Of a stretch of 64,000 nucleotides of DNA, positions 14,503-19,879 are shown one piece after another. The stretch spans positions 868,001 to 932,000 of the forward strand of contig NC_005363.1 in assembly GCF_000196175.1 (NCBI RefSeq), read 5' to 3'. Each line of letters begins with the position of its first letter. Position 1 is the stretch's first letter. A program made the translations under genes and the position numbers. The notes beneath the pieces were generated by a model that saw only the letters and a program-made list of their open reading frames with translations, was not told the DNA's origin and did no database searches. This DNA is from Bdellovibrio bacteriovorus HD100 (GTDB taxonomy: Bacteria > Bdellovibrionota > Bdellovibrionia > Bdellovibrionales > Bdellovibrionaceae).

Positions 14503-15252
14503 TCATCGGAGCATCTTCATAAAGGCATTCGCGAACACATGAGCATCTCCAGGCCAGCGGGCGGAAAGATAGGTCCCATCTTGGACAACAAACCCATGAC
14601 CGAGGTTCGACGAACTGTCTCTGAACAGAGGTGTCGGGCCTTTTAAAAAATGTTTCGGCGAAGCCAGCGCAGCCGTCACTTCGCTTTCGACTGTTTGGGG
14701 ATAGGTTCGATAGTAGTTCCCCATCCAAGTGCAAGTCAGAACCCAGGCCGCCATTTCCTGAGAGGCCAGAAGGGCGGTGGTTTTTCGACCATAAAGGACA
14801 CTTCGCCCATCTGGGCGTTGGCTTCTGGCGGCCAGGACAACTCCGTGGCAAATGGCGCCGACGGGTTTGTTTATTTCAAAAAAATGGCTGACTGTTTTTT
14901 GCAGCAGCGATGATTCAAGATACTCTTTCATTCCCTGTGCATGGCCACCGGGCAGCAGCAGCCCCTGGAACTGATCTGGAGATATTTCGTCCCATTTTAT
15001 GGGGTGATGAAACTCGTCGGCTTGGGTCAGTTCTTGATATGCTTTCAGGGCATTTTTATCGGCGGCAAGAAGCGGTGCCAGCGGGCCAAGGCGGGAGCCA
15101 GTCAACATGTGTTGATCGCAAACGGCTTCACTTCCGGTGGGGGTTGCAAAGACAACTTTCACTTGGCTGTCATTCAGGACTTTCCAGGGAATGGCCACCT
15201 CGGTCGGGTCGAAGTCTTGGCTGGGCAGAGGGATCAATACTTTCTTTTGCAT
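14503..15252 (-). CDS. DJ-1/PfpI family protein
   Basis: A 249-residue class I glutamine amidotransferase-like protein. The nucleophile elbow is AICHGVVLAA with Cys, preceded by the strand GLLLPGGHAQGMKEY, where the Glu-type partner of DJ-1 proteins normally sits. Members include glyoxalase III, deglycases and stress chaperones such as Hsp31, and some are longer than classic DJ-1 as here. No signal peptide is seen. I start at the ATG at 15252 (MQKKVLIPLP); an in-frame ATG at 15273 adds seven residues. It is divergent from the CarH-like regulator, separated by about 180 bases that contain AGTCAC repeats. Confidence 0.85.
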   Translation of the reverse strand: MQKKVLIPLPSQDFDPTEVAIPWKVLNDSQVKVVFATPTGSEAVCDQHMLTGSRLGPLAPLLAADKNALKAYQELTQADEFHHPIKWDEISPDQFQGLLLPGGHAQGMKEYLESSLLQKTVSHFFEINKPVGAICHGVVLAARSQRPDGRSVLYGRKTTALLASQEMAAWVLTCTWMGNYYRTYPQTVESEVTAALASPKHFLKGPTPLFRDSSSNLGHGFVVQDGTYLSARWPGDAHVFANAFMKMLR

Positions 15253-15280
15253 ATCGTAGCCTAAGGGCTCCATTTGCAGC

Positions 15281-15306: not shown

Positions 15307-15431
15307 CCGGTCCTTTGTCTAGTATTGAGAATCTTATGGCAACAAAGCGATTAGATTTCATAATTTTTGATTAAAAAAAATCTATCCGAAGCTATCATGA
15401 ATTAATCAAAACATCCGATAAGGTGATTAAC

Positions 15432-16352
15432 ATGGTAATCTCTGATGCGCTTCTAGACATTGATCAGGTCAACCAACTCACGGGGCTTTCCCAAGCGACT
15501 CTTCGTAATTGGGAAAAACGTTATGGGTTTCCCAAGCCTCAGCGCTCGGAGGGGGGACATCGCCTTTACCATGTGGAAGAGGTCCAAAAGATACGTGAAG
15601 TGGTGAGCCTGTGCAAGAACGGGATCAAGATACTAGAGGCCATCGAGAGGGTTTTAAAAGGAACTTCACCCGTATCAGATACGGCCGTTGCCATATCGCA
15701 GCCGACTTCACCCGTTTTTGTGGAGCCTCTGAATGAGGGGATTAGTCAGGTCTTAAAGGCTCTTTATAAATACGATATGGATCTGGCTGAGCAGTATCTT
15801 TCCCGTCTTGGTATGCGCTTAAGCGAGACGGATCTGTTGGAGATGGTCTATCCAAAACTTCTTATGAAGGTTGGAGAAGATTGGGAAAACTCGCGTATTA
15901 ATATCGCGCAGGAACACTTCAGCTGGAACTTCCTGCGCACTCGTTTGTTGAACTATTTTAAATCCAACAGAGTTGGTGTGAATCAACCCAAAGTACTATT
16001 GACGACTCCGCCGGGCGAGTTGCACGAGGGTGGGTTGATTGTTCTCGCGGCTTACCTAATGCTGAAGGGCTGGCAGGTTTATTACCTCGGGGTGAATTTG
16101 CCTATGGATGACTTGCTTCATGCGTATGAAGGCATTGAGCCTGACATTGTCTGTTTGTCAGCTATTGAGTCGGAAAACATTGAAAAAAACTGGAATGAAC
16201 TTGAAAAAATGAAGTGCGTCGTGGTGGGTGGCCCATGCCTGGCCGAGCTGAGGGTGCAGGAACTTCCTGAATCAAAGCATATTTCTTTGGTTGGTGGCAA
16301 TCTGCATTCGGCGGTCGCGCAAATGGAGCTGTTGTTACATTCAGCCACGTAG
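15432..16352 (+). CDS. MerR-family regulator with B12-binding domain, CarH/LitR-like
   Basis: A 306-residue transcription regulator. The N-terminal MerR winged helix shows LDIDQVNQLTGLSQATLRNWEKRYGFP and the wing GGHRLYHVEEV. A linker of about 30 residues leads to a helical bundle and a cobalamin-binding fold. The bundle contains W-x9-EH (Trp 151, Glu 161, His 162), the hallmark of CarH light sensing by adenosylcobalamin, and the B12 fold carries GELHEGG, where His 198 would be the lower cobalt ligand. CarH tetramers block DNA in the dark and fall apart in light. AAGGTG lies 6 bases before the ATG; a GTG at 15423 is a weaker alternative. The next gene, 48 bases on, is a chemoreceptor. Confidence 0.87.
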   Translation: MVISDALLDIDQVNQLTGLSQATLRNWEKRYGFPKPQRSEGGHRLYHVEEVQKIREVVSLCKNGIKILEAIERVLKGTSPVSDTAVAISQPTSPVFVEPLNEGISQVLKALYKYDMDLAEQYLSRLGMRLSETDLLEMVYPKLLMKVGEDWENSRINIAQEHFSWNFLRTRLLNYFKSNRVGVNQPKVLLTTPPGELHEGGLIVLAAYLMLKGWQVYYLGVNLPMDDLLHAYEGIEPDIVCLSAIESENIEKNWNELEKMKCVVVGGPCLAELRVQELPESKHISLVGGNLHSAVAQMELLLHSAT

Positions 16353-16400
16353 TTTTTAATTCGAATAGTTTTTATTTGTACTTTTCAAAGGAGCGTCAAA

Positions 16401-17936
16401 ATGGGGTCGAATTTTAGTTTAAAAGGCAGACTTTTACTTCTTGGTGCTTTCATGTCCGCTATTCCGGTGCTGGTTGGAGGTTTTGCATTCTACGGGATGC
16501 GAGAAGTCGCAAGCAGTTATGAGAAAGTTACCGACGGAGTGCTTCCCAATATTGAGTCCGCGGATCAGATGTACATGAATTTTCGCGGTGTCAGAATCAG
16601 TTTGCGAAGCTTGGGTTTGCCGGGGCTGACGACAGAACAAGAAGCTGACTTTATCAAAGATGTCGAAGCCAATATTGCCGAGTATGAAGTGCACAAACAG
16701 CAATATCTGCGTGTGAACTTTAAGAAAGGCGAGCGGGAGCTCTATGAAAAGGTCGATGCTGCGTGGTTGGCATTTAAAGATCTTGGTGGGAAAGTCGTTC
16801 AGTATTCCCGCACTGGTAAGCCAGAAGACCGTGCAAAGATGCTGGAAATATTCCTATATGACTGTCCCAAAGCGGCTAAAGTCTATGACGACGCCATGAC
16901 AAAGCTTGTGGCTTTCCAAAGAGCCAGCGGCGTTCAGTACGTGAAAGAGGCCCGATCGACAACGAGAACCACAGATGGAAGCATGGCGATAATTATCGCC
17001 CTGGGAATGATCGCAGGAGTCACTATAAGTGTGATGTTTGCTCTGTCTCTTTCAAAATCAATTTCAGCCGTATCAGGGGATCTTGCTGAGGGGGCAAGTA
17101 ATGTGACGGACGCTGCTGGACATATTGCACATTCCTCTCAATCTTTGTCTCAGGCAGCTTTGCAACAGGCGTCCTCGTTGGAAGAGACCGTGGCGACGAT
17201 GGAGGAGCTGACGGCCATGGTTCGCGTTAATTCGGAAAACGCCAAGCAGGCAGCTTCTCTGGCATCATCAACCCGAGAGACGGCCATTAAAGGCGAAAAA
17301 GAGATCATAACGCTGATTCAGTCCATCCAGAGCATCTCATCGGATTCTAAAAAGATCGCGGAGATCACTTCAGTAATTGACGATATTGCCTTTCAAACGA
17401 ATCTGTTGGCCTTGAATGCGGCTGTGGAGGCCGCTCGGGCTGGCGAACAGGGAAAAGGCTTTGCAGTTGTGGCAGAGGCTGTGCGCAGTCTGGCGCATCG
17501 AAGTGCTGAGTCTGCAAAGAGCATCGCATCCCTGATTGATGACAGTGTTAAGAAGATCGATGCGGGCAGCCGACAAGCCAATCAGGGCGGTGAGGTTCTG
17601 GCGGAAATCGTAAATGCAGTTAAAAAAGTTGCGGATCTTAACACGGAAATTGCGACGGCCAGTGAAGAGCAATCCCATGGCATTGCCCAAATCGGTAAAG
17701 CAATGAATCAGCTGGATCAGATCACCCAGCAGAATGCTGCGGCCTCAGAGGAAGCGGCAGCCGCAGCGGAACAGCTTTCTGCGGAGGCTGAATCTTTGCT
17801 GGGGAATGTGCGTGTTCTTAAAAAGGTTGTATCCGGCAAATCCGATCAGGCAGAGTCCGCGGCCGCGTCAGAGGGAACTGATGAGGTCCTGAAGGCCCAA
17901 GCGCTGCCGAAAAAACGCACTTTGCGTGCCGCCTGA
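16401..17936 (+). CDS. Methyl-accepting chemotaxis protein
   Basis: A 511-residue chemoreceptor. It has an N-terminal membrane segment (LLLLGAFMSAIPVLVGG), a periplasmic helical domain of about 160 residues resembling the 4HB type, a second membrane segment (MAIIIALGMIAGVTISVMF), a short or atypical HAMP region, and the long cytoplasmic coiled coil. The signalling tip IDDIAFQTNLLALNAAVEAARAG is highly conserved and contacts CheA/CheW. Gln/Glu pairs suitable for methylation occur in the flanking helices. There is no C-terminal CheR-binding pentapeptide. AAAGGAG lies 7 bases before the ATG. It follows the CarH-like gene by 48 bases and may share its transcript, which would link the receptor's expression to that regulator. 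Confidence 0.93.
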   Translation: MGSNFSLKGRLLLLGAFMSAIPVLVGGFAFYGMREVASSYEKVTDGVLPNIESADQMYMNFRGVRISLRSLGLPGLTTEQEADFIKDVEANIAEYEVHKQQYLRVNFKKGERELYEKVDAAWLAFKDLGGKVVQYSRTGKPEDRAKMLEIFLYDCPKAAKVYDDAMTKLVAFQRASGVQYVKEARSTTRTTDGSMAIIIALGMIAGVTISVMFALSLSKSISAVSGDLAEGASNVTDAAGHIAHSSQSLSQAALQQASSLEETVATMEELTAMVRVNSENAKQAASLASSTRETAIKGEKEIITLIQSIQSISSDSKKIAEITSVIDDIAFQTNLLALNAAVEAARAGEQGKGFAVVAEAVRSLAHRSAESAKSIASLIDDSVKKIDAGSRQANQGGEVLAEIVNAVKKVADLNTEIATASEEQSHGIAQIGKAMNQLDQITQQNAAASEEAAAAAEQLSAEAESLLGNVRVLKKVVSGKSDQAESAAASEGTDEVLKAQALPKKRTLRAA

Positions 17937-17942
17937 TCCGGC

Positions 17943-18986
17943 TTACCACACCCATGTCAGCTTTTTGTTTTGGTGGGCGATCAGCAGGTTCAGCATATAG
18001 ATGCAATCCCAACCATTGGCGCGCTTCCAAGTTTGTTCGGAAGAGTCCCGCTGCCATTGCCAGTCCGTGTGATCGTTGGGGCCTGTTGGAGCCTGCACCG
18101 GACATCGTTGCAGAACTTTCGCGATAACCTCTGGGGACGATCCTTTATCCAGGAATTCAAACAAAGGATTACCGGGGTCTTTTCTTTCCAGTGCTTTCAC
18201 TGTGTGACGAATACGGGATTTGGCCGTGGCAGAGTGCTGATAGTAACCTAGCAGCCGGTGAAAAAGGACACTTGATGCTTTCAAGTGAAGAGGATAGCCC
18301 TTTTCGGCAAACAGAATTTCCAGTTCGTTGAGAAGGCTTTTGTGATCAGCGCGCGCACCGTAGATCTTTTTCCACAGGCGGGAGTCTTCACCCAGAGTGC
18401 GTTTGGCATCGCTTTCCATGCCCAGTGCGCTGAGCACCAAATAGGTCAGATTCAAAGTTGAGCCACGCATATGGCAGGAGGAAAACATTCCTTTGCCGTC
18501 GTCGCACATATTGTTGCCTTTTTCCTGCTCCAGGTATTTAAGCCAGGACATCATGGCGCGCCGGGCTTTTTCGTTTTTTTCCGGCTCGCGTGTCAGAAGT
18601 CCGTAAGAGATCATATAGGCTACGATTCCTCGGAACTGATCGCGACTGAAGCTGCTGCCTTCAAAGTCCGTGTCCACATGCATGGGGCCGCGCCACCAGC
18701 GGCCATCGTGCCCCTGGGAAAGTTCGATATCGCGGCAGCGGGCCTCGCTGGTGACAGAGTCTCCGGCCAGTGTGGCAGCCATACAGCTGAGCCCGGCAAA
18801 AATCATCAGATCCCCATGGTCACAGTGAGTTTTGGTGGATGAAAACGTTCCCTGCCAAGGATTCTCGCGACAGAGGGACACCCAAGGGCGGATCTGCTCG
18901 CGGCGTTCGGTCAGCTGGTTGATGACTGGATTGGCGACAGCTGTTGAACTTACAAGGATCAATAAGGCAGACAGGACAGACTTCAT
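17943..18986 (-). CDS. Exported protein, unknown function
   Basis: A 347-residue protein with a cleavable signal peptide (MKSVLSALLILVSSTAVANP). The mature part is helical and carries about nine cysteines in patterns such as SLCREN, THCDHGD, LSCMAA and EARCRDIE, and conserved-looking aromatic motifs (GRWWRGPMH, DWQWQRD, LTWVW at the C-terminus). The repeated helical pairs could form an alpha/alpha toroid, but I do not recognise a family. GGAGG lies 5-9 bases before the ATG at 18986. It is convergent with the chemoreceptor gene, the stops being only 6 bases apart, with no terminator visible between them. Confidence 0.75.
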   Translation of the reverse strand: MKSVLSALLILVSSTAVANPVINQLTERREQIRPWVSLCRENPWQGTFSSTKTHCDHGDLMIFAGLSCMAATLAGDSVTSEARCRDIELSQGHDGRWWRGPMHVDTDFEGSSFSRDQFRGIVAYMISYGLLTREPEKNEKARRAMMSWLKYLEQEKGNNMCDDGKGMFSSCHMRGSTLNLTYLVLSALGMESDAKRTLGEDSRLWKKIYGARADHKSLLNELEILFAEKGYPLHLKASSVLFHRLLGYYQHSATAKSRIRHTVKALERKDPGNPLFEFLDKGSSPEVIAKVLQRCPVQAPTGPNDHTDWQWQRDSSEQTWKRANGWDCIYMLNLLIAHQNKKLTWVW

Positions 18987-19135
18987 AGAGGCCTCCGACA
19001 CTTCGATATGAAGCCAGAGTCATGCCATGCTGAAAGTCGATCGTTTGTTGTATGGGGTGTGGCTACTGCATAAGCCCTGCACAGAGGGGCAATATGGGGC
19101 GATCGCGTATTCCGCGATCGCTGGCGAGTCTAGGA

Positions 19136-19879
19136 CTAAAATTTAGAGATTTGATCAACGTATTCTGGGTGATCAATGAATGGATTGCGATTGCCTTGAA
19201 TTCTTTCAATGGCATTGTTGCGCTCCACTTCCGCCTGATCCACGGGATCAAGTTTGTTCCAGCGGCGCAGGGTAGCTTCCTGTACAGCTGGGATTGGGAA
19301 GTCATAGCGAACCGCGAAGTAGAAGATCGCTCTGGCAACATTGCCTTTGTGTTTTACAGGTGGTTCAAACACCAGCTCACGGTCGCTGCCGCTGCCCAGT
19401 TTGGATTCTGTGTCGATGTCATGTCTTTCTTCATCAAAACACTTTGGCATGTTTTTAATTGTGCCCACGTCCCCAAATGCGAAATTGCCGCGCATGGAAT
19501 TGGCTCTGGAATCAGACGGGTAAAGGTGGTGCAGGTCTGCTTTGCCGACATTGAAATAGTGTCGTCCTTTGAACCAGGATTGAGCGACTGTGTGTTCAAC
19601 GTTGATGATCGTGGAAGCAGGTTCTTTTCCTGGGCCGACGCCGTTTCCTAGATGGGTTTTGCCATAAGGTGTGGAGCAATAAACTTCATCGATTGCATAA
19701 GAGCCGTCGGTCATTCGGATCAGAGCGACGTTGCCAAGCAGTTCTACTTGGGCTTTGTCGTAAGAAATTGGATCGTGCTTGGAAGTGACTTCTTTTTTAA
19801 GATCGCCGCGAAGATCGGCTTTGGCTGCGATTGAAGTTAAAAGAAGTACAGATGACAAAAATAATAATGAACGGCCCAC
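19136..19879 (-). CDS. Exported endonuclease I family nuclease
   Basis: A 247-residue secreted nuclease of the EndA/Dns type, which cuts DNA non-specifically in the periplasm or outside. It starts with GTG at 19879, preceded by AAGGGGGG 5 bases upstream, and a signal peptide (GRSLLFLSSVLLLTSIAAKA). The family core is clear: NVEHTVAQSWF, with the catalytic His, followed by ADLHHLYPSDSRANSMRGN and FEPPVKHKGNVARAIFYF. In a predator this enzyme would help degrade prey DNA; that role is inferred. Cysteines in VYCSTPYG and PKCFDEE may form a disulfide. Confidence 0.93.
   Translation of the reverse strand: MGRSLLFLSSVLLLTSIAAKADLRGDLKKEVTSKHDPISYDKAQVELLGNVALIRMTDGSYAIDEVYCSTPYGKTHLGNGVGPGKEPASTIINVEHTVAQSWFKGRHYFNVGKADLHHLYPSDSRANSMRGNFAFGDVGTIKNMPKCFDEERHDIDTESKLGSGSDRELVFEPPVKHKGNVARAIFYFAVRYDFPIPAVQEATLRRWNKLDPVDQAEVERNNAIERIQGNRNPFIDHPEYVDQISKF

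Follow-up and report, generated by a model that had tools for sequence, protein, structure and literature searches.

CarH is a B12-dependent photoreceptor and repressor of the MerR type, known for pigment control. Tandem 11-bp TnnACA repeats form its canonical operator, and a histidine directly following the tryptophan of the motif W-x9-EH is common, albeit not universal, among CarH-type photoreceptors. The CarH proteins of Thermus thermophilus and Myxococcus xanthus combine a MerR DNA-binding domain, a four-helix bundle which contains W-x9-EH, and a Rossmann domain with a histidine ligand, an architecture also found in the protein described below. For CtMerR of Chloracidobacterium thermophilum (8JBS/8JBT), we know of no link to chemotaxis. 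CtMerR carries the light-response signature, defined as GxxW, EH, GxxH and GxxxP, and responds to green light with arginine at the place of the bis-His histidine; proteins with Arg, Gln or Tyr at this position are light-responsive (PMC11796333). The Trp and EH of CarH contact the photolabile adenosyl group, and the B12 motif reads D/ExHx2G/P-x41-SxT/V-x22-27-GG (PMC9304148). CarA of M. xanthus and a group of paralogs from Bdellovibrionota, here termed W-less, likewise consist of a MerR and a B12-binding domain and have EH and usually the His ligand, but have lost the Trp.

The regulator Bd0931

The window analyzed is a stretch of 64,000 nucleotides of Bdellovibrio bacteriovorus HD100 (NC_005363.1, positions 868,001 to 932,000), to which the coordinates refer unless stated otherwise. 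It contains a regulator which sits with a chemotaxis receptor, not beside pigment genes as is usual for such sensors:

15432–16352, + strand: CarH-type MerR/B12-domain regulator of 306 aa, presumably Bd0931 (Pfam, AlphaFold2, CarH structure matches)
15882–15884, + strand: Trp151 of W-x9-EH, followed by Glu152 (His132 in Thermus CarH; sequence, alignment)
15912–15917, + strand: Glu161-His162 of W-x9-EH (sequence, alignment)
16023–16025, + strand: His198, predicted lower cobalt ligand, in GELHEGG (sequence, alignment)

The gene order in the window is MerR regulator, methyl-accepting chemotaxis protein (MCP), one open reading frame, and endonuclease I (19136–19879). Since published names fit this order, with Bd0931 described as a MerR regulator (PMC5941755), bd0932 as an MCP gene missing from strain Tiberius (PMC3539863), and endA as bd0934 (PMC3593177), regulator and chemoreceptor are by inference Bd0931 and Bd0932. 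For the open reading frame past the chemoreceptor gene (17943–19001, – strand, presumably Bd0933), neither a Pfam match nor, in 23 other genomes of the genus, a homolog was found.

The reading frame of the regulator starts at ATG, and its product matches the Pfam families MerR_1 (7.7e-12), B12-binding (1e-10) and B12-binding_2 (9.3e-5), the last with a score exactly on the 23-bit cut-off. The original prediction of a CarH-type signature was borne out by the protein sequence: it reads G148-E-D-W151 and E161-H162, giving an exact W-x9-EH from Trp 151 to His 162, and GELHEGG occupies residues 195–201 with His198 inside. Alignment with Thermus CarH places W151, E161, H162 and H198 on W131, E141, H142 and H177 (numbering of the Thermus protein from PMC11796333). 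With GVNLP at residues 220–224, all four elements of the light-response signature are present (G148-W151, E161-H162, G195-H198, G220-P224). The B12 motif of PMC9304148 is matched by E196-L-H198-E-G-G201, the x41 spacing and S243; departures are S-A-I for SxT/V and a spacing of x20, not x22-27, ahead of GG. The recognition helix of the MerR domain, RNWEKRY, is of the RxWERRY type (genome G017 has R for K) and resembles RQWERRY of Thermus CarH.

Unlike the Thermus and Myxococcus proteins, Bd0931 has Glu152, not His, after Trp151, and Glu is found in 5/5 Bdellovibrio orthologs. Due to this replacement, Bd0931 is unable to form the bis-His light state of the Thermus protein. On the NCBIfam CarH equivalog model NF052513 it scores 158.5 bits, under the curated cut-off of 400; for comparison, a 227-residue fragment of Thermus CarH scores 431.8. 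Retention of Trp151 sets Bd0931 apart from CarA, which keeps EH without Trp.

The AlphaFold2 model of Bd0931 (pLDDT 89.8) found the Thermus CarH structures 5c8f, 5c8e and 5c8d as top Foldseek matches. Its cobalamin domain gave Z-scores of about 21 to CarH and photocobilins, versus 17.4 to methionine synthase. The domain is also similar to that of CtMerR (Z 18.9), which differs in having Arg after Trp and is 22% identical over the aligned domain. The tree likewise places Bd0931 in a common clade with Thermus CarH (support 100/99), so that it shares both clade and fold with CarH, and the W-less paralogs form a separate clade. Judged from sequence and model, Bd0931 is a variant CarH-type protein; it was not filed as CarH proper because it falls below the equivalog cut-off and lacks both the bis-His residue and a canonical operator. 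A CarH-like mode of action is predicted for it.

The promoter and a putative operator

Two elements precede the regulator gene:

15366–15410, strand not assigned: inverted repeat TTTGATTAA-N27-TTAATCAAA, putative operator of the CarH-type protein (conservation)
15415–15420, + strand: CCGATA, -10 element of the FliA (sigma28) type, conserved in 5/5 carH-mcp promoters

The conserved stretch upstream of carH comprises only about 75 bases in five genomes. The inverted repeat occurs exactly in G000, G017, G019 and G020 and nowhere else in 24 genomes of the genus, at an expectation of about 5e-5 per genome; in the fifth carH promoter (G025) it is present in degraded form only. Its arms are invariant at 18/18 positions, as compared with 12/27 in the spacer. 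A copy with two mismatches at genome position 2,913,276 falls within a long ORF and was dismissed as a chance match.

In contrast to the CarH operators of Thermus and Myxococcus, tandem TnnACA repeats were not found in the carH-mcp promoters, which have TTAATCA half-sites instead. The half-site recurs upstream of a more distant homolog: the crp-carH promoter of G028 contains three tandem 11-bp TWAATCA repeats (TTAATCAGTAT, TTAATCAGTAT, TAAATCATGGT), and no other such array was present in the loci searched, about 0.7 Mb counting duplicates. The intergenic stretches between carH and a divergent kinase gene in G048 and G244 contain CTTAATCAAAA. We infer from these recurrences that the W-bearing branch may bind TWAATCA half-sites and that the repeat at 15366–15410 is a candidate binding site of Bd0931, although it could serve another regulator.

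For bd0931, published work reports a FliA site in the promoter and attack-phase-specific expression (PMC3627812), and down-regulation once predation has lasted 30 minutes (PMC2797640). The passages of these two studies on bd0931 make no link to light or B12, and among the papers found on CarH, phototaxis or photoreceptors in Bdellovibrio, none had a title or abstract about the protein. CCGATA sits just downstream of the inverted repeat. The FliA promoter reading has weak points: there is only a poor -35 match at the expected spacing, the element TTAAG is absent at the reported spacing, and the implied transcript begins only a few bases upstream of the ATG.

Conservation of the chemoreceptor partner

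The gene downstream of carH, and the translation signal ahead of it, are:

16387–16393, + strand: AAAGGAG, ribosome-binding site of the chemoreceptor gene (read in the sequence)
16401–17936, + strand: chemoreceptor of 511 aa, presumably Bd0932, with 4HB_MCP_1 sensor and MCPsignal domains

As originally noted, 48 bases separate the stop codon of carH from the chemoreceptor gene (16353–16400). No terminator-like site was called in this gap, and the two genes apparently form one operon. A survey of 66 genomes of the taxonomic family identified orthologs of Bd0931 (60–78% identical) in four other Bdellovibrio genomes, each of which has a chemoreceptor ortholog (70–75% identical) directly downstream, giving a pairing in 5/5 genomes with HD100. 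The flanks mostly differ; the two closest genomes (loci L001 and L002) have common flanks. Among the sensor-domain matches in these 66 genomes, the five linked to carH rank highest, with 60–100% identity, versus 53% for the next. In two of the five genomes (G017 and G025), the carH-linked chemoreceptor is followed by another one, which has a Cache_3-Cache_2 sensor (L034, 5672–7525; L035, 11697–13481). At none of the five loci were crt genes found beside carH.

The original prediction had considered light and B12 control of either motility or oxidative damage repair plausible, the latter on account of a divergent DJ-1/PfpI gene. This gene is indeed present in HD100 (14503–15273), but no DJ-1/PfpI match was found near the four other orthologs, which puts oxidative damage repair outside the conserved unit. 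The chemoreceptor link, however, holds up: it is kept in five genomes with mostly differing flanks, making light or B12 control of chemotaxis a serious hypothesis. Since the pairing with a chemotaxis receptor is kept in 5/5 of the relatives found to have the regulator, light or vitamin B12 may tune the steering of the predator. Carotenoid genes elsewhere, the anatomy of the promoter, the FliA and attack-phase data on Bd0931, and Glu in place of the bis-His histidine are points beyond the original prediction.

W-bearing and W-less members of the family in Bdellovibrionota

When 368 genomes of the phylum were searched with a profile of the W-bearing clade, 11 proteins scored 373–436 bits and one degenerate protein 252, with all others at 169 or less. 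The four close orthologs have an intact W motif, as do four homologs that are more distant; a fifth distant homolog, from G333, reads EY for EH. The motif is missing from 18 W-less paralogs, most of which have Val at the place of Trp. By this distribution, the W motif in Bd0931 is more than chance. A degenerate member from G027 (L003, 5995–6954) has ET for EH and has lost the His ligand; it is probably a B12-independent derivative.

Outside the carH-mcp pairs of Bdellovibrio, chemosensory neighbors also occur in two more W-bearing lineages. The carH gene of G335 is divergent from genes for an Hpt/CheW protein, CheW, an MCP and CheR-CheB, and that of G048 from genes for an Hpt-HATPase kinase, a PAS protein, a CheY-like receiver and CheX; in G244, the same kinase and PAS proteins are encoded divergently from carH. 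The divergent kinase and PAS set is thus conserved in two distant genera (L040, 10211–14946; L070, 11040–14813), with CheY and CheX in L040. The kinase of both loci has no match to the usual CheA domain set. No chemosensory genes were found by carH in G028, where a Crp-like gene lies ahead of carH, or in G038 and G333. Near the W-less paralogs, no MCP match was found in the stretches covered, which for many loci extend only about 1.5 kb. Counted by row, chemosensory neighbors accompany 8/12 Trp-bearing versus 0/18 W-less members (Fisher test, p 8e-5, a value inflated by kinship); counted by lineage, they occur in about three of six W-bearing lineages versus none of the W-less, many W-less loci being seen within about 1.5 kb.

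Unlike Bd0931, the W-less paralogs adjoin crt genes in several Bdellovibrio genomes, in part with canonical 11-bp T[AT][GT]ACA repeats. Such repeats, 11 bp apart and about 36–62 bases upstream of the start, were seen in 5/7 promoters of crt-linked W-less regulators (L037, L044, L046, L023 and L021). These regulators have the appearance of CarA-type proteins that control carotenoid genes in Bdellovibrio.

Proposed mechanism and alternatives

We give about an even chance to a model in which Bd0931 is an adenosylcobalamin- and light-responsive, attack-phase autorepressor of its own carH-mcp operon. Bd0931 would take adenosylcobalamin as chromophore, and carH-mcp would be transcribed in attack-phase cells, which swim freely, from the FliA-type promoter. 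When it is dark and adenosylcobalamin is available, the protein would oligomerize and occupy the TTAATCA half-sites over the -35 region and the spacer, keeping chemoreceptor synthesis low; light or lack of adenosylcobalamin would release it, Bd0932 would increase, and the altered receptor mix would change the steering of the predator. Predicted steps of this model are cobalamin binding, photolysis, operator binding, co-transcription, the sign of regulation and the effect on taxis. As for the cofactor, the genome contains a cobalamin adenosyltransferase gene, but its matches to the CobB/CobQ family, which is used in de novo cobalamin synthesis, are all weak; cobalamin is therefore probably imported.

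The main alternatives are a B12 sensor devoid of a light role and control of the HD100 carotenoid genes in trans. Bd0931 might report the supply of adenosylcobalamin, for instance from prey, to carH-mcp, with light being of minor physiological importance. The consistent Glu at the bis-His position and the probable import of cobalamin speak for such a sensor; we nevertheless regard it as unlikely, since the residues that contact the adenosyl group in CarH, Trp151 and EH (PMC9304148), are retained and proteins with other replacements of the same histidine still respond to light (PMC11796333). That Bd0931 acts on the crt genes, with the chemoreceptor as passenger or minor target, appears quite unlikely. 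No further full-length homolog was found in the HD100 genome, whose crt cluster at about 1.66 Mb has no MerR gene beside it in 19.9 kb, and a TnnACA pair 11 bp apart precedes crtE (L053, 6565–6690; genome positions 1,658,564–1,658,689), where about 0.03 pairs are expected per 300 bp. This pair is a weak hint of crt control in trans; the crtE upstream stretch of G005, a genome without a match to Bd0931, lacks it. However, no phytoene synthase match was found in 4/5 carH-mcp genomes, one of these assemblies being only 88% complete; moreover, the conserved inverted repeat was not found at crt with two mismatches allowed, and the crt-linked regulators of the genus are the W-less paralogs.

A third reading takes Bd0931 for a B12-independent, CarA-like relic of a photoreceptor with a functionless motif, paired with the chemoreceptor by attack-phase co-expression only. 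Degenerate members do exist in the same clade (loss of EH and His ligand in G027, EY in G333), and cobalamin binding by Bd0931 is itself a prediction. But 5/5 orthologs, with overall identities down to 60%, share Trp, Glu, His and the His ligand, which points to selection, and we consider the relic very unlikely.

Implications

If the autorepressor model of Bd0931 is true, a CarH-type sensor with a conserved chemoreceptor partner would be the first B12-based light input to chemotaxis, as far as the literature searched shows, and would provide a function for an attack-phase regulator that transcriptome studies have flagged but left unexplained. The idea is testable in a tractable laboratory predator, using green light and B12. 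Beyond the single locus, we tentatively suggest, as a possibility rated below even, that the W-bearing CarH branch of Bdellovibrionota may have been rewired from pigment to behavior: with its half-site re-specified to TWAATCA, it would act as a dedicated light/B12 switch of chemosensory genes and, in Bdellovibrio, would determine which chemoreceptors the hunting cell carries, with the W-less paralogs serving the carotenoid genes.
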